A program made the position numbers and the translations under genes. Shown piece by piece: positions 46,290 through 56,855 of a DNA stretch of 64,000 nt. Below the pieces are notes generated by a model. It was not told the DNA's origin. It saw nothing but the letters and a program-made list of their open reading frames with translations, and made no database searches. The stretch is from Hydrogenimonas urashimensis. GTDB taxonomy: Bacteria; Campylobacterota; Campylobacteria; Campylobacterales; Hydrogenimonadaceae. Location: contig NZ_AP023212.1 in NCBI RefSeq assembly GCF_016593255.1, forward strand, positions 1,900,001 through 1,964,000. The letters run 5' to 3'. Each line of letters begins with the position of its first letter. Positions within the stretch are counted from its first letter, which is position 1.

Positions 46290-46413
46290 CCTGCCTTTTG
46301 TTGGAATATTGGGGATATGATATCATTTTATGGGATGGGTGAGAAGTGGAAACGGATGTTACGCGAATACGTGGCGTCATCTCGAAATCTTTGATTAAAA
46401 AGCTTTAGGGGGT

Positions 46414-46462
46414 GCGGGGGAGTGTCAGCCCCCGCCAAAGCCTGGGCTTTGCTCAGGCTTTG
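46414..46462. repeat. paired GC-rich palindromes in the exonuclease/MFS gap
   Basis: Two adjacent hairpins lie in a 192-base gap. GCGGGGG/CCCCCGC (46414-46435, 8-base loop) is followed at once by CAAAGCCTG/CAGGCTTTG (46436-46462, 9-base loop). They sit just past the end of the MFS gene and may terminate that long operon. The double, back-to-back layout also resembles dispersed extragenic palindromes. The rest of the gap holds an AT-rich stretch near 46310-46335 that may be the exonuclease promoter. Confidence 0.6.
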
Positions 46463-46481
46463 CGTAACAGGGGGTGGAGAG

Positions 46482-47699
46482 TTACACCGGTTTGCTTTTC
46501 CACGCGGCCCAGGCGGCGAGAGTGCAGAGCAGGGCCGAGAGGAGTCCGAAGGCTTTTTCTGCTTCCAGATGGGGGAAGAGTTTCAGCAAAAAGCCGAAGG
46601 CGGCGCTGCCTATGGCGGAAGCTCCGAGGAGGGTGGCGCCCTGGAGCGCGGCAGCGACACCGCTGTTGGCGCGGAAAGAGGTAAGAGAAGATTTCATTCC
46701 TACCGGGGCCAGGGCGCCGAAAAGGGCGGCGAACAGGGCTACGACGCCGAAAAAGGAGACGATGCCGCTCAACAGGCCGATTCCCAATGCGATGAAAAGA
46801 AGTGCCGTGACGGCGGCGATTTGTGACCCGATACGGTAGACACCGTCGCTCCCTGACCTACGAAGGAGTTTTGCGCCGGCCCAGCGTCCCAGAAAGAGGC
46901 CGATGACGATGATGACATTGCTAAGACCAAACGCCACAGGTCCCAGTCCGTAGGTTCCCATGACGATATAGGGCGCCGCGGCTAGAAATAGCCCCTGAAT
47001 GGCGAAGAAGGTGATGATGGGCAGCATCACCAGTATGAAAGAGGGGGCGGTGAGCATGGTCCCCACCAGGGAGAGTGTGTTGAAGAGATGGAGCGGTGTA
47101 CGGGCATGCGCGGCATGGGTTTCGGGTATGTCGCGCCATGTCAGTGCCAGAACGAGGGTGGCGAAGAGGACAAGAAACCAGAAGTTGGCACTCCATCCCA
47201 ACCACTGCGTCAGCACGCCGCCGATCATGGGAGCGGCGACCAGGAAGAGGCCGCCAAGAACCGCCAGCCATCCCATCAGCGAGACCAGCCTGAGATCGGA
47301 ACATGTGTCCCGTACTGTGGCCATCAGGGTTCCTGGAATCATACTGGCACCGAAAGCCTGAACGGCCCGGCCTGTCATCAGGGTTTCGAAATCACCCGCT
47401 AAAGCACAAAGGGTAGAGCCTACGATAAAAAAGGCCATGCCTGAGAGCAGCAGGGGCCTTCTGCCATAGGCGTCGCTGAGTGCCCCGGCGATTAGAATGA
47501 AGGAAGCGAAAACGATGAAATAGATGGTCAAAGTCTGGCTCATTGTCGCCGCATCGATATGGAGTTCCTCCCCGATGATGGGCATGGCGGGCAGGTAGAT
47601 GGAGGCGCCGACACGGACGATGGAGCCGATGAGGAGGACGAGTGCGCCAAACAGAAAAGTGTCGCAAAGATGGATGTTGTCGTTTATCGCTTTTTTCAT
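46482..47699 (-). CDS. MFS exporter, Bcr/CflA type
   Basis: A 405-residue (from ATG 47699) proton-driven exporter with about 12 transmembrane helices. The loop 2-3 motif GALSDAYGRRPLL matches motif A of DHA1 drug exporters, and LPAMPIIGEEL in helix 1 is typical of Bcr/CflA proteins. The frame can start at a GTG (47723) overlapping the GH3 stop, but the ATG eight codons later has a better upstream region. It ends the minus-strand run that starts at pldA, directly after the GH3 gene, so it may export the GH3 product; that is inference. Confidence 0.88.
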   Translation of the reverse strand: MKKAINDNIHLCDTFLFGALVLLIGSIVRVGASIYLPAMPIIGEELHIDAATMSQTLTIYFIVFASFILIAGALSDAYGRRPLLLSGMAFFIVGSTLCALAGDFETLMTGRAVQAFGASMIPGTLMATVRDTCSDLRLVSLMGWLAVLGGLFLVAAPMIGGVLTQWLGWSANFWFLVLFATLVLALTWRDIPETHAAHARTPLHLFNTLSLVGTMLTAPSFILVMLPIITFFAIQGLFLAAAPYIVMGTYGLGPVAFGLSNVIIVIGLFLGRWAGAKLLRRSGSDGVYRIGSQIAAVTALLFIALGIGLLSGIVSFFGVVALFAALFGALAPVGMKSSLTSFRANSGVAAALQGATLLGASAIGSAAFGFLLKLFPHLEAEKAFGLLSALLCTLAAWAAWKSKPV

Positions 47700-47719
47700 A
47701 TCCCACTCACTTCCATGCT

Positions 47720-49324
47720 TCACGGTATCGAAAATTCATTTTGGGGAATCTCGTTGTAGACCAGGGGCAGTTTGACCTGGGTTCTCGACTGATTCGGGCG
47801 AGTGTGCCTTCGGTAAAGGGCCTCCTGCCATCCCGACGCCATCAGGGTGACGGCCAAAGGTTCCAAAAGCTTCTGTTGCCGGAAAATGGGATAGATGAGG
47901 CTCTCATCCTGCAAAATAGCTTCCAGACGACGGGCGATGGTTTCGGCCAGGGTTCCATCGGCTTCGATGGCCTCGGAGAGCTCGATGCAGAAACGGTAGC
48001 GGTGCCGGTCGGACTCGGACACCACGCACCAGTGACGGGGCGGGTGGCCCGTTGTCTCTTCCACGGCGCGGGCGACCATCGGCATCAGCGATGTGGCGGC
48101 CACCTTCTCCCCGCAGAGGTTGAGCATGTCACCCACTTTCTGTTCGAAGAGAATATGGGGTGTGGAGCCGGTAAATCCCGTGACGCGCACCAGATCACCC
48201 ATCGTATATCGGTAGAGGCCGGAATAGGTGGTGATGACGAGTTCGTAGCTTTCGTTCTCCTCCACTTCGTGGGCCAGCAGGCAGGTGTCGGTACCGGGAA
48301 TTCTGAATTCATAGAAGGCGGCGTGGATCGCCAGAGGGCCCGACGGGGTTTCGGGAGCGAGGGGAATGTTGAATTTTCCTTCCGTGGCGCCGTATCCAAC
48401 ATCGAAAAAACGCACATCGGCATCGACCAGGGGGCGGAGGGAGGAGACATACCGACCCACGGAGCCCGAGAGCCAGCAGGCGATCACCCGGAGGTTCGGC
48501 CAGTAGTGGGAGGGGGCGAAAGTGCCTTCTTTTACGAGGAAACGGCGCAGCCTTTCGGCTGTTGCCGGATCGGGACGCATGACCGATTCCAGCGCCTCTC
48601 TTGCCTTAGCAGAGAGCGTTTCGATGCCGCGGAGCGTTCCGTTTTCGATATCTTCGATAATGGCTTCAGCCTCCTGTTGCGCTACTTTCAGAAGCTGGGC
48701 GATGCGCCCGGCATTGTTGCCGAAGATCGCCCGTACATCCTCCGCTACGGCAAAACGCATCAGGATGTAGTCGATTCGGTTGCTGTAGTCAATATCGAGC
48801 ACAGCCATCGGAAAAGCGATCATCTTTCGGATCGTTTCCGGTGCCGTGACGAGGGTGATGCCCGAGGCGCTGCCGTAGGGGATGCCGCCCGGCGTGACCC
48901 CTTCGACAGCGTGGTTGACCAGGGGGAACAGTTTGCCTTTCATCATCTTCGGGACATGGCGGGCGATCGCTTCAATCCGCAGGCGGCCGGTCAGGGATTT
49001 GATCGATTGGCCCCGTTGGGATTCGGGGATGATCTTCACGCCTCCCGTGGTGCCGCTTGTGCAGATGAAGTAGGGCGGCCGACCGGGAAAGAGGAGATCG
49101 TTTTCGCCCTTTTCGAGTCGCTTGGCGTATGGGGCCACATCCTCCCAAGAGGAGAGAGGCACCCGCCGGCGGTAGGTTGCGATATCTTCCATCTCTCCAA
49201 AGCCCAGTTTTCGGCCGATTTCGGTCTCCTTCGAATAGGAGAGAATGTCATGCAGCACCTGCCGCTGGAGAGATTCCGCATCGTTGCAAAGTTTCAGAAA
49301 ATCGTCGAGATTGTTCGGCTCCAT
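47720..49324 (-). CDS. GH3 family acyl-acid amido synthetase
   Basis: A 534-residue adenylating enzyme of the GH3 fold, first known from plants where it conjugates auxin and jasmonate to amino acids. All three nucleotide motifs are recognisable: TSGTTGGVK at 89-97, GYGATEG at 310-316 and YRYTMGDLVRVTGF at 371-384. Family knowledge predicts activation of a carboxylic acid as AMP ester and transfer to an amine. The substrate is unknown. The ATG at 49324 has GGAGG upstream and abuts the preceding stop (TGATG); an open frame of 43 more codons lies inside that gene. Bacterial GH3 proteins exist but are little studied. Confidence 0.9.
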   Translation of the reverse strand: MEPNNLDDFLKLCNDAESLQRQVLHDILSYSKETEIGRKLGFGEMEDIATYRRRVPLSSWEDVAPYAKRLEKGENDLLFPGRPPYFICTSGTTGGVKIIPESQRGQSIKSLTGRLRIEAIARHVPKMMKGKLFPLVNHAVEGVTPGGIPYGSASGITLVTAPETIRKMIAFPMAVLDIDYSNRIDYILMRFAVAEDVRAIFGNNAGRIAQLLKVAQQEAEAIIEDIENGTLRGIETLSAKAREALESVMRPDPATAERLRRFLVKEGTFAPSHYWPNLRVIACWLSGSVGRYVSSLRPLVDADVRFFDVGYGATEGKFNIPLAPETPSGPLAIHAAFYEFRIPGTDTCLLAHEVEENESYELVITTYSGLYRYTMGDLVRVTGFTGSTPHILFEQKVGDMLNLCGEKVAATSLMPMVARAVEETTGHPPRHWCVVSESDRHRYRFCIELSEAIEADGTLAETIARRLEAILQDESLIYPIFRQQKLLEPLAVTLMASGWQEALYRRHTRPNQSRTQVKLPLVYNEIPQNEFSIP

Positions 49325-50784
49325 CAAACCTCCTCCACTCTCGCGTGGGCTTTGCGCATATACTCTCTCAACGCTATCGCCCGCTCGTCGCTGAGCATGA
49401 CCGCATCGAAGTCGAAACGTTGCCCCTGCAGGTGGGTATAGACCAGATCCCACTCTGCCATGGTTTTGATGACCACGCCGCTGTAGAAGAGCCGGAGGCG
49501 TGCCATTGTCTTTTCAAAATCCGGGGGAAGGGGGCGGTCGGCGGGTATATGCAGGTGAAGGGTGATGATACCGTCGTCGCTCAGCTCTTTCATCCGGCGG
49601 CGCAGTCCTTCGGCCCAGTCTTGCCCCAAATGCTCGATCGTGATGAGCGCGTAGCGGTCCCGCTCCTCCTTTTCCACGGTAAATTCCGATGTTTGCCTCT
49701 CCGGCAATCGGCTTTCGGTGTGCAAAGAGAGGGTTTCGAAGTCCTGGATGAGGGTATGGGTGATTTCCACATGCTCTTTGGGCAGGTAGAGGGTCGTCGG
49801 GTCAAGGCCGTTGGGTGCCAACAGGGCGTAGAGCAGGCTTTCACGGCGCACTTCGTCGGTTTCGATGCCCACAAATTCGGCCGGGTCGTGGACCGAAAGT
49901 TTCAAGGCGGTTGGAACGAATCGGTAGGCGCTCACGAGCTTTTGGGAGCGGGTATGGGCCGTCACCAGCTTGGCGTAGGCGGCCCGCAGGCCCCCTTTGC
50001 CCTCTTTGAGATAGTGTACCTGCATCCGCGATACTCTGAGCAGTGCCCGGTTTTTACGGTATTCCGGGCGGCTCATCAACATTCCCGCCTCGGCGATGGC
50101 GTTGCAGTGGGGAGAGCGGAAATAGGCGGAGTTGACCACCACTTCCCCCTCCCGGTTTTTGGCGACGAAGGCGATGACCCGACCCGATGCGATGGCCTCT
50201 TCCAGCTCTTTTCTGTAGTAGAAGATACGTTTGACATAAGAGTAGCGGTAAGTGAGGTAGGTGAGCTTGACGATGTCGTAGGCGTCCGCCGGTGTGGCCA
50301 ACCCTGCCTCCAGCTTCTCTTTCGCGCAGGCGTCGATGGCTGCGGTTTCAAGGGGTGGACTCTTTCGCAACGGTTTGAAACGGCGAAAACGCTTCTCGAA
50401 AACGAGTACCCACCCTCTGTTTCCCTCATTTCGAAACTGCAGAGCGTCGGTGAGGCTTTCGAGAAGAAAGAAGGAGAGTCCCGCCATCGACGCCTCCGGG
50501 TGGCGGCTGTCGTAGACCGGCAGGTTCTCTTCGTCGACGGGAATCCCTTTGTTGCGAAAAAGAAAGCGAAGTCCATTGTCGATGGGCTCGGCTTCGATTT
50601 CAAAAAGTTCGTTCGGGTCGGGCCGGAACGCGTCGATAATGAAAGCCGCCGCCTCCTCCGCCGCCAGCTCCAGCTGGTGCTTTTCTGTCTCATCGGCTCC
50701 GAAATAGCGCCCCGTTTCGGCGACGAAAGCACGGACGATACCTACGGCCCCCAGGTCGTGGAAGGTGGAGAGCCGGGTGGTCAT
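49324..50784 (-). CDS. degenerate RsbW-like ATPase domain fused to GNAT-like region
   Basis: A 486-residue protein. Residues 1-135 resemble an anti-sigma-factor/RsbW histidine-kinase-type ATPase: KHQLELAAEEAAAFII at the N-box, a NKGIP segment at G1 and AGLSFFLLESLTDALQ at G2. The N-box Asn that binds magnesium is Phe48 here, so kinase activity is doubtful. Residues about 155-290 look like a GNAT acetyltransferase (EAGMLMSRPEYRKNRALLRV as acyl-CoA loop), and a further region to the end may be a second related fold. GGAGAGG precedes the ATG. It lies between the SpoIIE phosphatase and GH3 genes. Domain calls are by eye. Confidence 0.75.
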   Translation of the reverse strand: MTTRLSTFHDLGAVGIVRAFVAETGRYFGADETEKHQLELAAEEAAAFIIDAFRPDPNELFEIEAEPIDNGLRFLFRNKGIPVDEENLPVYDSRHPEASMAGLSFFLLESLTDALQFRNEGNRGWVLVFEKRFRRFKPLRKSPPLETAAIDACAKEKLEAGLATPADAYDIVKLTYLTYRYSYVKRIFYYRKELEEAIASGRVIAFVAKNREGEVVVNSAYFRSPHCNAIAEAGMLMSRPEYRKNRALLRVSRMQVHYLKEGKGGLRAAYAKLVTAHTRSQKLVSAYRFVPTALKLSVHDPAEFVGIETDEVRRESLLYALLAPNGLDPTTLYLPKEHVEITHTLIQDFETLSLHTESRLPERQTSEFTVEKEERDRYALITIEHLGQDWAEGLRRRMKELSDDGIITLHLHIPADRPLPPDFEKTMARLRLFYSGVVIKTMAEWDLVYTHLQGQRFDFDAVMLSDERAIALREYMRKAHARVEEV

Positions 50785-50838
50785 ATCCTCTCCTTGCGAG
50801 CATTGGTAAAAGATGAGAACGATGTGAGAGGGGGTGTC

Positions 50839-52596
50839 TCAGGCATGGGCTTCTCCGGTCAAGGTGATGACGATGAGGGTCAAATCGTCGTTGGGTTCAT
50901 TGTCGTCGACGAAGGTTTCGATCTTTCGGACGATACTTCGCTTGATGAGAACGGGGTCGTCTGAATGGGCTTGAACGATGGCCCGACTCAGGCGTTCGAC
51001 GCCGAACATCTCCAGACGGCTGTTCTCCGCCTCGCTGACGCCGTCGGTAAAGGCAACAATGACACTCTTTTTCGAAAGAGGCAGGGCCTGGTTTTCATAT
51101 TCGGCGAATTCGAAAGCGCTGATGGGAGGAGCGAAGCGGGGAAGGGGCGAGGCGAGGCGACCGCCCTCTTTGACGATGAAAGGGGGATGGCCGGCTATGG
51201 CGAAAGTCACTTTCTCTTCCGAAGCGTCCACGAGGCCTATCAGCAGCGTGGCGAACATCTGCTGTTCTCCCAGATCGCAAAGTTTCCGGTTGGTCCGCGT
51301 CATGATATAGGCCGGATCGAGACGCTCGTCCGCCGCCGCTTCGATGAGGACCTTGGCGGCCATCATGAAGAGCGATGCCGGCACTCCCTTGCCGGAGACG
51401 TCGCCGATATAGAAGAGAAGTTTGTCTTCTTCGATTCTATAACCGTAAAAGTCACCACCTACCTCCTTGGCCGGTCGCATCATGCCCGCTAGAGCGAAAG
51501 GCGGTTGGACAAGCTCCTCTTTTTTGGGCAGGAAGCTCTGCTGGATACCGCTGGCCAGGGCCAGCTCGTTGCGCACACGCTCCTGGCTGGCCGCGTTGCT
51601 CTCCAACTGTTTGGAGACCATGAGGACCACGATGAGTATCAGCATCATGCCGATGAATGTGATGAGCCCCATCCGTACCCGCATGCCGGTCAGAGGCGAA
51701 AAGAGGGCGTCACGCCGGAGCATCACCCCTACGACCCAGGTGGTTTGGGGAATGCCCATCGTATAGAGCATGTAATCGATGCCGTCGAGAGTGATATTGT
51801 AGATACCGAATTTTTTGCGGGCGATTTTGCGGGCCGCCTGGGCCAACGAGGGAGAGTGGTGTTGCCTGGCGTAGGCCTCCAATGTTTCCCTGAATCGTAC
51901 TTTTGCGTCCGGATGGTAGAGCATGAATCCTCTGTAGGTGACCAGAAAAACGAAACCCTCGTCCATCTGAGCGATGCCATCCATGTAGCGTGCGAGCTTT
52001 CCCAACGCAATGTCGACGGTGGTGACGCCCAGGAAGCGACCGGTGATATCGAAAATCGGATGGCTGTAGGTGCTCATGTAGACATTGCCGCCCCCTTTGT
52101 CGAAGTAGGGGTCGCCCCAGCGGGGTTGGCCCGAGTATTTGGCGGCGGTGTACCAGGCGGCGTGGAGGTAGTCGTAGGCGGGTGGAAGCAGCTCTTTTTC
52201 GGCTACTCCGTTGGGCGTTTTGTAGAAATAGCGGCAGTAGGGCTTCGGGGACAGCCCCCCGGGTTCCAGGGCAAGAGCGGAGCCGAAGGCCGCATCTTCC
52301 AGGGCCACGCCCCTTTCAATCAGGGGAAGGACCCGTTCGTAACGGTCGGGGTCCGCTTCGACGATATAGGCCGCTTCAACGGCGTATCGGCTGGTCCGGT
52401 TTAAGAAAGACTGAATTGATTGCAGGATGTTCAGATTGGCGATGTGGGCACGCTGCATGGCCGAAATCTGCAGCTCCCCGCCGATATATTCGTCGATGAT
52501 CACCAGAGATGTCAAAAAAAAGGGGATCGTGATGACGACGATATAGAAGATGATCTTTTTGCGAATCGAATCGAGCTTAAACCGTAAGATCGACAA
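50839..52596 (-). CDS. Cache-domain SpoIIE-type serine phosphatase
   Basis: A 585-residue membrane phosphatase of the partner-switch type. The layout is a membrane helix (15-34), a periplasmic double-Cache domain (about 40-300, with WYTAAKYSGQPRWGDPYFD), a second helix (about 308-328) and a PP2C/SpoIIE domain. Metal-binding Asp residues are in GGDFYGY (382), IGDVSGKG (399), FTDGVSEAEN and NDDLTL. It should dephosphorylate the STAS protein encoded nearby. The TTG at 52596 is preferred because AAGGAG stands six bases upstream; an ATG at 52614 lacks a site. Both overlap the RsbW gene. Confidence 0.9.
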   Translation of the reverse strand: MSILRFKLDSIRKKIIFYIVVITIPFFLTSLVIIDEYIGGELQISAMQRAHIANLNILQSIQSFLNRTSRYAVEAAYIVEADPDRYERVLPLIERGVALEDAAFGSALALEPGGLSPKPYCRYFYKTPNGVAEKELLPPAYDYLHAAWYTAAKYSGQPRWGDPYFDKGGGNVYMSTYSHPIFDITGRFLGVTTVDIALGKLARYMDGIAQMDEGFVFLVTYRGFMLYHPDAKVRFRETLEAYARQHHSPSLAQAARKIARKKFGIYNITLDGIDYMLYTMGIPQTTWVVGVMLRRDALFSPLTGMRVRMGLITFIGMMLILIVVLMVSKQLESNAASQERVRNELALASGIQQSFLPKKEELVQPPFALAGMMRPAKEVGGDFYGYRIEEDKLLFYIGDVSGKGVPASLFMMAAKVLIEAAADERLDPAYIMTRTNRKLCDLGEQQMFATLLIGLVDASEEKVTFAIAGHPPFIVKEGGRLASPLPRFAPPISAFEFAEYENQALPLSKKSVIVAFTDGVSEAENSRLEMFGVERLSRAIVQAHSDDPVLIKRSIVRKIETFVDDNEPNDDLTLIVITLTGEAHA

Positions 52597-52942
52597 TATT
52601 CTCTCCTTCTTCATAACGGTAGTGCAATGCCTGGACCAACTGGGTGACAAGAAAGAGTCCCAGGCCGCCGTATTCGCTCTTTTCCACCGAATCGAGGGGA
52701 CCTTTGTCGTCCCGGCTCGGATCGAACCGATTGCCGCCGTAACGCAGTCTCATACGCGAGACACCATCCTCTCTTTTCAATTCCATCCGGTAGCCTCCGC
52801 TGCCTCCATGCGTGAGAAGATTGACAACCAGCTCTTCGGCGACAAGTCGCAGTTTGTAGCATTGCGACGTTTCGAGTTGGTTGGCTTCGCAAAAAGCTTC
52901 GATGGCGGCCATTCCCTCCTCCAGGGTGCTGAACCGCGCCAC
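52577..52942 (-). CDS. RsbW-like anti-sigma-type serine kinase
   Basis: A 121-residue GHKL ATPase of the RsbW/SpoIIAB class. The N-box EELVVNLLTHGG has the magnesium-binding Asn41 and His45, and the G2 loop YGGLGLFLV is at 91-99; the G1 region is diverged. Family knowledge says it phosphorylates a STAS partner and sequesters a target. The GTG start at 52942 shares its first base with the STAS stop and follows AGGAG by five bases. No sigma factor lies in the cluster, so its target is unknown. Confidence 0.9.
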   Translation of the reverse strand: MARFSTLEEGMAAIEAFCEANQLETSQCYKLRLVAEELVVNLLTHGGSGGYRMELKREDGVSRMRLRYGGNRFDPSRDDKGPLDSVEKSEYGGLGLFLVTQLVQALHYRYEEGENIVDLTV

Positions 52943-53238
52943 TATATCTCCTGCATGAAGGTCAGAAACCCGGAAATTTTGAGTATCTCTTTGACATTGG
53001 GGTTTGCACCCGCGACATAGACCTTTTTCCCTGAAACCTGGGCTGTTTTGGCGCATTTGAGCAAAACCTGCAGTCCCGCGCTGCTGATGTACTCCAGGTC
53101 GTGCAGATCCAGAAGAATATCGCGATCGAGGTTCTCCACCCCCTCGGTGACCTCGTTCATAACATTGGCCGCGTTCGTCGCGTCGAGGCGTCCTTTGAAA
53201 GCGATGCGCAGCTTCTCTTCTTTGGTGATGTCGGGCAT
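52942..53238 (-). CDS. STAS domain anti-anti-sigma protein
   Basis: A 98-residue single STAS domain, the substrate of RsbW-like kinases and SpoIIE-type phosphatases. The phospho-acceptor loop is YISSAGLQVLL, with Ser53 as the likely site. AAAGGAG lies six bases before the ATG. The gene is three bases after the receptor gene and overlaps the kinase gene, so the set is translated together. Confidence 0.94.
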   Translation of the reverse strand: MPDITKEEKLRIAFKGRLDATNAANVMNEVTEGVENLDRDILLDLHDLEYISSAGLQVLLKCAKTAQVSGKKVYVAGANPNVKEILKISGFLTFMQEI

Positions 53239-53241
53239 GGT

Positions 53242-55314
53242 TTACTCCTTTGGTCGGGTATCATGGTAGGCGCTGAGGCGCTCCTGGACGGTTTGGTCGA
53301 TCGTGGCGGAGAGGGTGTCGAAGGCTTCGATACGCTCTTCGATCTCCCCTCTCTGGCGGTGGATCGCCTTCTGGGTCGACCTTGCGTAGAAGAGGAAGAA
53401 AAGCACCAGAGCCAGGGAGAGCAGCACGATACCAAGCACGATGGCGAAAATGGTGGTTTTGAGCCTTTGGTAAGAGGCCATCGCCTCCGATCGGTCGATT
53501 TCCACGATAATGGCCAGATTGAGCAGATCATCCCACATCCAGGCTCCCAGGACCGGTATGCCGCGGTAATCGGGGTATCCTTCCACGTTGAAGCCTTTTG
53601 CGTTCCGAAGTGCGTCACGGGCCGCAAGGGTCGGTTGTCTCTCATGGAGAAGTCGAATATTGAGAAAAGAGATCTCGTTGACAGGCAGCAGGCCCGCTTC
53701 TTTGAGGTCCCGTTCGAAGCGGCTGCGGGAGATCATCTGAAGCTGGGTGTTCATGAGATAGGTTTCACCCGTTTTGCCTATGCGCCCCTGGCGGACGATG
53801 TTGAAGATGGGAAGCGGATCGAGGCGCATGGCAAAGAGGGCGACAGGTTCATGGGTCGCTGGATGGGCGATGACATTGAAAATGTAGTAGTGGCGCAGAT
53901 GGCCCAGTCTGTCTTTCTCCACTTTGACCGGGGGTACGTAGGCGAAACCGATTTTGAAAGCTCTGTCGATCTCTCTGATGATGGGGGCGTAGGTGATGGC
54001 CCTGCCTCTTAACGAGGGCTCCGATGCGCTGAGGATGGTGCCGTTTCGGTCGATGACGAGGTAACCGGTGGCTCCGACGATTCTGGATTTGAGCCCCAGC
54101 AGGATAGGGATAGGATCGACATGGGTAACGTCGAATTCACCTTTTTCCCAAAAAGGAGCCAGAAGAGCGCTCCGGTTGACCACATGGTTGAGGTGGTAGT
54201 GCTGGGAAAAAAACCACTCCCGCAGGGCGCTATGGGTGACATTAAGAACGGTCTGAAGCGATTCGGCCATCTCCTGTTGCCGGTCGCTTTTGGCGGTATG
54301 GAGTGCCACGGCTGTAGCCACCAAGGCGGCGGTGAAGACCATAAGGGCGGCAACAAGCAGAGGGATGCCCAACACGGAAGCCCCCCTCTGTCGATACTGG
54401 TACCATCCTCCCAGGCTCAATACCAGGACCAATCCCAGTACGATGAAGAGCAGGTCCAGAGGGAATACCTTCCAAAGAGTGAAATTTTGCTCGCCGCTCC
54501 TCTTTGCTTCATAAGCCCGGGGTCGTGTCCATTTTTCATAAATGGTTCGTAGTTGACTCTTGGGAATGGCCGCCAGGGCCTTTTCCAGAACCGAACGGAT
54601 GAGGGGGCGCACATTCGACTGAAAACCGATGTGCAGATCGATGGAAAAAGGGAGCCTGGCGGCGAGGGCAAGATCTCCGTAGCCCTCTTTGTGGATGAAG
54701 TAGTCGGCGGTGGCGCTGTTGATGGCGAATAGGTCGATTTTGCCGCTTCTTAGCTGGTCAAGGCCGTCTCTGACCGTGGAAAACTCTACAAGGCGGATGC
54801 GGGGGTGGGTACGTTTCAAATACTCTTCCACGGCATACCCTCTCACGACACCTACGCTCCGACTCTCAAGGGCCTTGGCAAGATTTTTAGGCAGGGAAGG
54901 GCGGTCGAAACGGCGCAGCAGCACAGTTGGCAGGGAGAAGAGGGAGTGATGGCTGAAATCCATGAAAGCGTTGCGGGCGGGGGTTTGGGTTACCGCGCTG
55001 ATGAGCTGGGCTTCACGTTTTCGAAAAAGATCCATCGATTCGGCCCAATTTTGGGTCGGTATCGGGTCGAAGCGGATCCCTGTCATTTGGGCGAGGAGTC
55101 CGTAAACGTCAGCTACCATGCCTGTGTAACGTCCCAATTCATCCCGCCACTCGAATGGGGGCCAGTCGGGGTCGTAAACGAACCGCAATGTGGGATGGGT
55201 CTGCAGCCATGCCTTCTCTTCAGGCGTGAAGAGAGGTCTGGGAGGCGTGTCGCCGCTATGCAAAGGGGAGGATACGAGAGTCCATAGAAAAAGCGATAGA
55301 AAAAAGCTTTTCAT
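53242..55314 (-). CDS. membrane receptor with solute-binding and Cache domains, no output domain
   Basis: A 690-residue protein. It has a signal peptide (1-20), a family-3 solute-binding domain (about 40-265), two transmembrane helices (286-303 and 315-338), a periplasmic Cache-like domain (about 340-620), a third helix (about 624-648) and a short cytoplasmic coiled coil (650-690). No kinase, cyclase, phosphatase or methyl-accepting domain follows. It probably signals by contact with the neighbouring SpoIIE phosphatase or switch proteins; this is inference. The ATG at 55314 is chosen over the GTG two codons earlier because it begins the signal peptide. Confidence 0.82.
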   Translation of the reverse strand: MKSFFLSLFLWTLVSSPLHSGDTPPRPLFTPEEKAWLQTHPTLRFVYDPDWPPFEWRDELGRYTGMVADVYGLLAQMTGIRFDPIPTQNWAESMDLFRKREAQLISAVTQTPARNAFMDFSHHSLFSLPTVLLRRFDRPSLPKNLAKALESRSVGVVRGYAVEEYLKRTHPRIRLVEFSTVRDGLDQLRSGKIDLFAINSATADYFIHKEGYGDLALAARLPFSIDLHIGFQSNVRPLIRSVLEKALAAIPKSQLRTIYEKWTRPRAYEAKRSGEQNFTLWKVFPLDLLFIVLGLVLVLSLGGWYQYRQRGASVLGIPLLVAALMVFTAALVATAVALHTAKSDRQQEMAESLQTVLNVTHSALREWFFSQHYHLNHVVNRSALLAPFWEKGEFDVTHVDPIPILLGLKSRIVGATGYLVIDRNGTILSASEPSLRGRAITYAPIIREIDRAFKIGFAYVPPVKVEKDRLGHLRHYYIFNVIAHPATHEPVALFAMRLDPLPIFNIVRQGRIGKTGETYLMNTQLQMISRSRFERDLKEAGLLPVNEISFLNIRLLHERQPTLAARDALRNAKGFNVEGYPDYRGIPVLGAWMWDDLLNLAIIVEIDRSEAMASYQRLKTTIFAIVLGIVLLSLALVLFFLFYARSTQKAIHRQRGEIEERIEAFDTLSATIDQTVQERLSAYHDTRPKE

Positions 55315-55338
55315 GACCACCGGGCGCCCCGAGGCCTA

Positions 55339-55353
55339 TCCGCTGCGAGCGGA
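55339..55353 (-). other. intercistronic hairpin between pldA and receptor genes
   Basis: TCCGCT/AGCGGA with a 3-base loop lies in the 51-base gap. There is no T run and no AT-rich promoter sequence, so read-through from pldA into the receptor gene is likely, perhaps with mRNA processing. Confidence 0.45.
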
Positions 55354-55365
55354 CATGGCAGGGTG

Positions 55366-56757
55366 TTACTGGAAGAGTCCACGGGAGAATGCGAAACCGA
55401 AAGAGGTCTTGGTGACATTGCGGTTGTAGTCGATCAGACTTTCGCCATAGCCGTTGAAAAATTTGAAATACCAGAAGGTTGTTTTGGAGTTGAAGAAGGG
55501 ATAACTCCAATCCAGCTGGACGGCGCCGCGGTCGTGGCCGCCTTTACCGAAGTTATAACGGAAAAGTCCGCCGAACTGGTGTTTACCCCACAGGTAGCTG
55601 AGAGTCAGGTCGCCGTAACCCATATAGTCGAGAATATCGGGATTGTCGTCTTTGCCGCTTTCGGAATTGGGGTCGATAAGTTGATCGCCCGTATCCGGCT
55701 TGCCGTTATGGTTGCGATCCACATATCCGCGATAGTAGTCATCCGACTTGTCCTCTTCGGGCAGCCGGTACCAGATACGGGGTTTGAGAAAAAGGTTGTT
55801 CCATTGGAAAAATCCTTCCACATAGAGCCGATTCCAGGAGCGTGAACGGAACCCTTCCTGTCCATTGGATTGGTGGATGAACCCCCATTTTGTCACCTTC
55901 ATGCCCGTCTTTTCGTCGAAACTCTGGGAGGTGGGAACCGCCACATAAAGTTCGGGCATATAGTTGGTTTCTCTAAAAGGGCCCGATTCGGAGTAGAGCT
56001 GCCAGAAGCAGCGCTGGGTATAGGCGGCTGTAATGTATTCGTTGAAACCGAAGAGATTGTAAGTGAGGTTCTTTTTAAGGCTGAACTGAAACTCCACTTC
56101 GGCCTGCTGATCGTATTCGCCATACTCCGATTCCCGGCTGAAACCGGGAATTGGGTTGATGGCGTCTGCGATGGTGTAGTTTTTATAAGCAGACGGCTGT
56201 CGTCGATACTTTCTATTGGCGTAACCTATCGGCATGATATAGTTCGCTTTGTAGGGGGTCAGGCCGAAGAAACGTCCCTCTGCCATATCATTGAGAAGCG
56301 ATTTTGTTTCGGGTGTATTGGTGTCAACTTTCGCGATGGCGGCCATGCCCGCGGCGCGAACGCTTGATTCGGTGAATTGCGCCTTCAGACGTTCCGCAAA
56401 CTTTTTGGCATAGACATTGTGCCCTTTTTTCGTTTTTTCTACCGTGTAGGCGTAGGTTTTCGCCGCCTCCTTGTACCAGTGGGCCGCTTTTTTGAAATCT
56501 TGCGGGACACCCAAACCGTTTTCGTAGATATAGGCAAGACGGTACATTGCCGCTTTGTTGCCTTTTTCCGCCACCTCTTCGAGGAGGGGAATCGCTTTGA
56601 GATACTGTTTCGATTCGAAAAGCTGGATGGCTTTCTGAAAATCCGCACCGGTTTTTGCACTGGCCTGTATCGCTATGGGGGTCAACCATAAAAATACTAC
56701 GAATGCAAGTTTACCGATGCAGGCAGACACCTTTCTCTCTCTTTTTTCTCCGAACAT
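55366..56757 (-). CDS. pldA: outer membrane phospholipase A with N-terminal Sel1 repeats
   Basis: A 463-residue protein. After a signal peptide (about 10-33), two Sel1/TPR-type repeats (about 38-105, with AMYRLAYIYENGLGVPQDFKKA) precede an OMPLA beta-barrel. The catalytic residues are complete: His295 and Ser297 in HQSNG, and Asn309 twelve residues after the Ser, the spacing of E. coli PldA. The final residue region FSRGLFQ is barrel-like. The Sel1 extension makes it longer than typical PldA (about 290-330). It hydrolyses outer-leaflet phospholipids. It is the first gene of the minus-strand run leading to the partner-switch genes. Confidence 0.9.
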   Translation of the reverse strand: MFGEKRERKVSACIGKLAFVVFLWLTPIAIQASAKTGADFQKAIQLFESKQYLKAIPLLEEVAEKGNKAAMYRLAYIYENGLGVPQDFKKAAHWYKEAAKTYAYTVEKTKKGHNVYAKKFAERLKAQFTESSVRAAGMAAIAKVDTNTPETKSLLNDMAEGRFFGLTPYKANYIMPIGYANRKYRRQPSAYKNYTIADAINPIPGFSRESEYGEYDQQAEVEFQFSLKKNLTYNLFGFNEYITAAYTQRCFWQLYSESGPFRETNYMPELYVAVPTSQSFDEKTGMKVTKWGFIHQSNGQEGFRSRSWNRLYVEGFFQWNNLFLKPRIWYRLPEEDKSDDYYRGYVDRNHNGKPDTGDQLIDPNSESGKDDNPDILDYMGYGDLTLSYLWGKHQFGGLFRYNFGKGGHDRGAVQLDWSYPFFNSKTTFWYFKFFNGYGESLIDYNRNVTKTSFGFAFSRGLFQ

Positions 56758-56855
56758 GCTGTTTCCTTGTGTTTCACGACGTTAAATTAAGAATCATCAT
56801 AATAAAATTTCAATTAAAAGAGTTTGAACCCCAAGTGTTTTAAGGAAAGAAATCA

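Follow-up and report, generated by a model that had tools for sequence, protein, structure and literature searches.

On the minus strand of a 64,000-nucleotide stretch of the Hydrogenimonas urashimensis genome (contig NZ_AP023212.1, positions 1,900,001 to 1,964,000, called the window here), the genes of a partner switch are followed by genes for a GH3 acyl-acid amido synthetase and an exporter, and between the two stands a gene for a protein that joins an RsbW-like domain to a GNAT domain, called WGNAT in what follows. Most known partner switches regulate sigma factors, a few act on cyclic-di-GMP enzymes, and bacterial GH3 enzymes are widespread and mostly of unknown function. We give about an even chance to the reading that this is a partner switch without a sigma factor, in which the STAS protein acts through WGNAT as an adaptor on GH3-dependent acyl-amide synthesis, followed by export. 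The sequence-only reading of this run of genes had the switch control synthesis by the GH3 enzyme and export, a picture that comparison with other genomes changed: as judged from gene neighbourhoods, WGNAT is the central actor and the conserved partner on the output side of the switch, and the GH3 enzyme is one of several exchangeable enzymes.

The proposed chain of events would start with external solutes. From what is known of the families, these would be read in the periplasm by the SBP/Cache receptor and, on the SpoIIE protein, by its Cache domain. On the same family grounds, the RsbW-like kinase would phosphorylate the STAS protein on its ISSAG site and the SpoIIE phosphatase would take the phosphate off. 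Instead of freeing a sigma factor, the unphosphorylated STAS protein would dock on the RsbW-like N-domain of WGNAT and, with no CoA-binding loop in its GNAT domain, WGNAT would scaffold or gate the GH3 enzyme, which would adenylate a carboxylic acid and couple it to an amine or amino acid, leaving the MFS (major facilitator superfamily) protein to export the amide. Gene linkage and the state of the motifs can be read from the sequences; the contacts of STAS with WGNAT and of WGNAT with GH3, the sign of the control and the product are what we infer, with an acyl-amino-acid-like compound being a plausible product. The genes concerned are as follows.

46482..47723, minus strand: MFS exporter, Bcr/CflA-like (PF07690; TIGR00710 below its cut-off); GTG start, alternative ATG at 47699
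47720..49324, minus strand: GH3 acyl-acid amido synthetase (PF03321, PF23571 and PF23572 above cut-offs); ATG start in TGATG
49324..50784, minus strand: WGNAT, a fusion of degenerate RsbW-like and GNAT domains with an alpha/beta domain at the C-terminus (HATPase_c_2, predicted fold)
50839..52614, minus strand: membrane dCache-SpoIIE (PPM) phosphatase (PF07228, PF22673)
52577..52942, minus strand: RsbW-like serine kinase (PF13581); GTG start (open frame from 53056)
52942..53238, minus strand: STAS anti-anti-sigma-type protein (PF01740; TIGR00377 above cut-off)
53242..55320, minus strand: membrane receptor with SBP_bac_3, a transmembrane segment, a Cache-like domain (partial dCache), a second transmembrane segment and a short tail without catalytic output

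WGNAT and its gene neighbours

WGNAT, a fusion protein of about 490 residues, forms a family of its own. Most of its loci were chosen by WGNAT sequence alone, and their neighbours were therefore not selected for; the exceptions were L119 and L129, found through GH3, and G015, a genome of the same genus found through SpoIIE. The genome samples are limited, neighbour genes were called with small home-made profiles, and related genomes among the 56 full-length or near-full-length WGNATs whose neighbours were compared are not independent. Beside these 56 stood genes of the M20 type in 16, of the LuxE/LuxC/PaaK type in 18 and of GH3 in three. At least two of the three switch genes, STAS, RsbW and SpoIIE, adjoined 14 of them, nine of which also had LuxE/LuxC/PaaK-type genes and one, that of the window, GH3; none of the 16 M20-linked WGNATs had switch genes beside it. 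Campylobacterota, Pseudomonadota, Synergistota and Planctomycetota have loci in which WGNAT and switch genes stand together, as do relatives of the two genomes that carry L119 (Desulfobacterota) and L129 (Acidobacteriota), and one cassette, made up of LuxE, a LuxC-PaaK fusion, PaaK, WGNAT and STAS-RsbW-SpoIIE, recurs in L054, L049, L059, L064, L196 and L200-L202, with L054 also encoding an aromatic amino acid transporter.

WGNAT by itself reaches further still. A search beyond the host's phylum gave matches in Pseudomonadota, Synergistota, Planctomycetota, Acidobacteriota, Desulfobacterota, WOR-3 and further groups. Within Campylobacterota, WGNAT or its GNAT part turned up in 30 of 397 genomes, where its usual partner is an M20 amidohydrolase (TIGR01891). 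The host's own second copy (L034, 8981-11628; 2065744 in the host genome) stands beside such an amidohydrolase, and in a genome of the same order (Campylobacterales), G267, the WGNAT closely resembles one from Sulfurimonas. The M20 class is that of the N-acyl amino acid hydrolases, whose chemistry is the reverse of that of GH3. Plasmids gave no match for the window's WGNAT and a partial one for that of L064, and a literature search, made mostly without subscription journals, returned no description of LuxE/LuxC/SpoIIE/GNAT or GH3/ATP-grasp clusters. Two loci, L046 and L047, have STAS-RsbW-SpoIIE-WGNAT without an acid-activating enzyme and adjoin PAP2 phosphatases; L046 also has an adenine deaminase, a xanthine/uracil permease and a 5'-nucleotidase, hinting at purine sensing. 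In L204, L205 and other Desulfobacterota matches, GNAT-like halves of about 345-400 amino acids are separate genes beside stand-alone RsbW-like genes, an arrangement that would fit an origin of WGNAT by fusion of neighbouring partner genes.

GH3 was looked for in 733 genomes from two further phyla and in those that hold 17 of the WGNAT loci, and two loci were found that combine it with WGNAT. L119 (G567, Desulfobacterota) encodes a RimK-like ATP-grasp protein, two GH3 enzymes in succession, an MFS protein and WGNAT, with overlapping ends or short gaps, and L129 (G425, Acidobacteriota) encodes WGNAT, a RimK-like ATP-grasp protein and GH3, the two ATP-grasp proteins being 53% identical. Identity to the window's WGNAT is 66% for L119 and 40% for L129, compared with 38-42% for the GH3 enzymes and 36% between the MFS proteins of the window and L119, and on these sequences WGNAT is better conserved than GH3 or the exporter. 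In a tree of 26 GH3s, those of the window, L119 (both) and L129 formed one clade with support of 100/100, and no WGNAT was found near any other GH3 whose surroundings were scanned. The WGNATs of the window, G015, L119 and L129 likewise formed one clade, in which that of L119 is nested with those of the window and G015, both of one genus; this placement points to transfer between phyla. Read from these trees and gene orders, a single subclade of WGNAT goes together with a single clade of GH3, and the link of GH3 and exporter to WGNAT is not an accident of one genome.

The window's GH3 carries all three Pfam domains of the family, intact ATP motifs (TSGTTGG, YGATEG and GLYRYTMGD) and the C-terminal lysine of QVKLP, and the exporter belongs to MFS_1 with 180.1 bits against the 200.9 asked for by the Bcr/CflA model TIGR00710. 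Campylobacterota yielded one clear GH3 homologue, a distant one with none of the window's switch genes and no WGNAT beside it, and a single-sequence GH3 scan of the genome contigs, a method of limited reach, gave no relative. Ten plasmid records have a GH3 of 23-30% identity, and of three neighbourhoods opened, two were unannotated. On the Citrobacter plasmid NZ_CP134684.1 (L083), the GH3 gene shares its run with an N-acetyltransferase gene and four genes for radical SAM proteins, a GH3 cluster of another kind.

The earlier claim that the GH3 enzyme is joined to the switch stands in part. GH3, exporter and WGNAT recur together (L119), as do GH3 and WGNAT (L129) and WGNAT and the switch (in several phyla), but GH3 with STAS-RsbW-SpoIIE was found in this genome only; the suspicion of a one-genome adjacency is thus refuted for GH3, exporter and WGNAT and still stands for GH3 and the three switch genes. 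This weighs against the adaptor reading, as do several other points. L119 and L129 are without switch genes, but lie on short contigs of 10.3 and 6.2 kb, and that of G015 stops within WGNAT; exporters of this MFS family are common, and only two loci pair one with GH3 and WGNAT; the RsbW-like domain of WGNAT may bind something other than STAS; and the window's RsbW (52577-52942), with the Bergerat ATP-binding N-box EELVVN and G2 motif GGLGLFLV intact, has Tyr for the G1 Asp, as is also the case in L046 and L047, which makes its kinase activity uncertain. One could imagine two independent modules on one transcript, a WGNAT-GH3-MFS cassette having been inserted behind a switch that controls something elsewhere, with co-expression as the only tie. 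The lack of switch genes on the L119 and L129 contigs and the failure to find GH3 in any of the genus's other 17 genomes (some of them incomplete, G015 included) would fit such a history, but WGNAT recurs with the switch in many phyla, its RsbW-like domain has the STAS-binding fold, and in G015 WGNAT lies directly behind the switch, all of which makes two unconnected modules unlikely.

That WGNATs of many phyla adjoin acid-activating enzymes and partner switches suggests, at the level of gene neighbourhoods, a widespread and undescribed control of small-molecule synthesis. With somewhat less than an even chance of being right, we tentatively propose that WGNATs constitute a new class of partner-switch output, namely RsbW/GNAT adaptors, often degenerate, through which STAS would directly gate GH3 and LuxE/LuxC/PaaK enzymes in many phyla and so start and stop small-molecule synthesis without transcription, the window holding the GH3 version with an exporter. 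If true, an adaptor that connects partner switches with acid-activating enzymes across phyla would bring small-molecule synthesis under the direct control of this mechanism; it would also give bacterial GH3 enzymes a physiological setting, and a compact operon in which to test what they make.

The domains of WGNAT and the switch proteins

The AlphaFold model of the window's WGNAT has a mean pLDDT of 82, and Foldseek matched its N-domain to SpoIIAB/RsbW structures and its middle part to GNAT enzymes, although Pfam does not detect the GNAT part in this copy and does so clearly in homologues. The RsbW-like/GNAT fusion named by the sequence-only reading is borne out by HATPase_c_2 and by the GNAT fold, but the catalytic motifs of both domains are lost: EEAAAF stands for the N-box ExxxN, FRNKG is without the G1 Asp, and RKNRAL replaces motif A, R/Q-x-x-G-x-G/A, in what is still a GNAT fold. 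In all four WGNATs of the GH3-linked clade (window, G015, L119 and L129) the Asn of the N-box, the Asp of G1 and the glycines of motif A are missing, with R-K-N-R-A and R-Q-N-S-D left of motif A; most other WGNATs keep that motif (RGxG/KGxG), and many keep the N-box. Because the catalytic motifs of both domains are gone, the window's WGNAT is probably an adaptor, neither kinase nor acetyltransferase. Nor is it decaying: between the window and G015, dN is 0.16 and dS 0.99, a dN/dS of about 0.16 that indicates purifying selection, and the protein has therefore probably been retained for binding.

An active acetyltransferase in the GH3-linked clade was rejected on the loss of these motifs. A related and quite improbable alternative has WGNAT as a working acyltransferase, or as acting on an intermediate made by GH3, so that the switch would control WGNAT catalysis and GH3 would just supply acyl-AMP. 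It draws on the many WGNATs that keep motif A and adjoin acid-activating enzymes, and runs into the loss of the motif A glycines across the GH3-linked clade, a GNAT domain to which Pfam is blind and the ability of GH3 enzymes to finish the amide bond themselves, as established for OlsH and plant GH3s.

The STAS protein scores 66.5 bits against the TIGR00377 cut-off of 53.45, matches PF01740 and keeps the ISSAG phosphorylation site, and so has the marks of its family. The SpoIIE protein, whose homologue in G015 is 67% identical, matches PF07228 with 152.8 bits and has kept the metal-binding motifs of PPM phosphatases, GGDFYG, DVSGKG, FTDG and NDD. In dCache_1AA domains the mark of an amino-acid sensor is an Arg two residues before the Trp of a Trp-Tyr pair, R126 and W128 in PctA (PMC10104139). 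Amino-acid sensing by the SpoIIE Cache domain was rejected, as a reading by eye places an Ala at the Arg position (LHAAWYT). That the run is a known defence system was also rejected, with PADLOC matching no anti-phage defence model to seven of its proteins.

It is also improbable that the genes make up an ordinary anti-sigma circuit, in which RsbW binds a sigma factor or an anti-sigma protein whose gene lies elsewhere, with the operon as transcriptional target. STAS, RsbW and SpoIIE are indeed the standard parts of such circuits, but WGNAT is a recurrent extra partner of the switch genes and these bacteria have, to our knowledge, few sigma factors and none of the SigB type. In addition, no sigma-factor domain, the hallmark of a SigB-type partner switch, was found in any of the eight proteins of the run, which upholds what had been noted before; the protein-protein control of the enzyme that had been offered in its place has a precedent in SiaC and SiaD (PMC8457831).

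Layout of the probable operon and the place of pldA

All eight minus-strand open reading frames were present at the positions first given, and Pfam/TIGRFAM-type searches together with a reading of the junctions agreed with the description first given of them, both in the domains named and in the ends that mostly overlap or touch. AAAGGAG lies immediately 5' of the receptor stop with the STAS ATG after it, the STAS TAG and the RsbW GTG share one base, and the SpoIIE start lies within rsbW. Further along, the WGNAT TGA and the GH3 ATG share one base (TGATG), with GAGGAGG, and the GH3 TGA and the MFS GTG overlap by four, or else the MFS ATG comes 20 bases past the GH3 stop. The longest gaps, put at 51-54 bases from the start, were confirmed as 51 bp from pldA to the receptor ATG (45 to the receptor GTG) and 54 bp from SpoIIE to WGNAT, the latter containing AAGGAGAG 5' of WGNAT. 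Good ribosome-binding sequences precede the STAS, RsbW, WGNAT and GH3 genes. Noncoding minus-strand promoter-like sites were found upstream of pldA and, as a pair, at 46317-46352 downstream of the exporter, with no others seen by the consensus scan, a search of low power, and those within genes are weak consensus matches only. From this layout, the genes from receptor to exporter are likely to form a single operon and transcript, the borders of which hold the following features.

55366..56757, minus strand: pldA (PLA1/PldA) with Sel1 repeat; first gene of the run
56799..56828, minus strand: promoter-like site upstream of pldA, TTCAAA-18-TATTAT (consensus scan only)
46345..46470, strand not given: dispersed repeat of about 120 bp with a GC-rich hairpin, downstream of the exporter gene; block boundary

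The host's family comprises one genus, and three genomes of it bear on the place of pldA. In G015 the order pldA-receptor-STAS-RsbW-SpoIIE-WGNAT is that of the window, with 54-85% protein identity, up to the point within WGNAT where the contig stops, before any GH3 position. In G002 an exonuclease gene (87% identical), pldA (76%) and an AI-2E-type gene (89%) are contiguous, and the block of about 9 kb that runs from about 46290 to 55365 in the window is absent; in G014, too, pldA adjoins the AI-2E-type gene. Since G002 has pldA but not the block, and in both genomes the AI-2E-type gene adjoins it, pldA is, on gene order, an ancestral neighbour outside the module, and the gene order of G002 and G014 led us to reject its membership, which the sequence-only reading had implied by listing it in the run. 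That all eight genes act together, with fatty acids freed by PldA being conjugated by GH3, is accordingly very improbable: pldA lies directly upstream with its promoter-like site, is upstream in G015 as well, and OlsH does use free fatty acids (PMC12493201), but the arrangement in G002 and G014 speaks against it, and PldA is an outer-membrane enzyme whereas GH3 is cytoplasmic. About ten copies or fragments of the repeat at 46345-46470 are present in the host genome and a further copy lies near pldA in G002; the repeat is possibly a non-autonomous mobile element.

Comparison with known systems

With the SigB and SigF switches (RsbU/RsbW/RsbV and SpoIIE/SpoIIAB/SpoIIAA) the window shares a STAS protein with a phosphorylatable Ser, a kinase of the RsbW fold and a SpoIIE-type phosphatase; it differs from them in having no sigma factor in the run, and in having the degenerate RsbW-GNAT protein and biosynthetic enzymes. 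A STAS protein whose unphosphorylated form acts on a non-sigma target, itself not known, is found in SypA of Vibrio fischeri (PMC8256260), although SypE is a dual kinase/phosphatase, and the target and operon differ from those of the window.

On the side of the enzyme, OlsH of Singulisphaera acidiphila is a bacterial GH3 lyso-ornithine lipid synthetase that makes an N-acyl amino acid from a fatty acid, ATP and ornithine (PMC12493201). The window's GH3 has its fold and nucleotide motifs, but scores 76 bits where the OlsH model asks for 620, has no OlsI/acyltransferase partner among the eight genes and lies in a switch operon; by score it is not an OlsH. Residues 11-424 of the window's GH3, most of the protein, align with the plant enzymes GH3.8 and JAR1 through the same motifs (structures, E of about 1e-31), but the window's enzyme belongs to a bacterial clade tied to WGNAT.

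SiaABCD of Pseudomonas aeruginosa differs from the window in its output, the diguanylate cyclase SiaD, no GGDEF domain being present in the run, and in having no GH3, RsbW-GNAT adaptor or SBP receptor; between the window's SpoIIE protein and SiaA only the phosphatase region is alike (65 bits against a cut-off of 700). The two systems have in common a membrane-bound SpoIIE/PPM sensor phosphatase, a kinase and a small phospho-protein whose direct target is, or in the window would be, an enzyme in place of a sigma factor, and SiaC activates SiaD only when it is unphosphorylated (PMC8457831).

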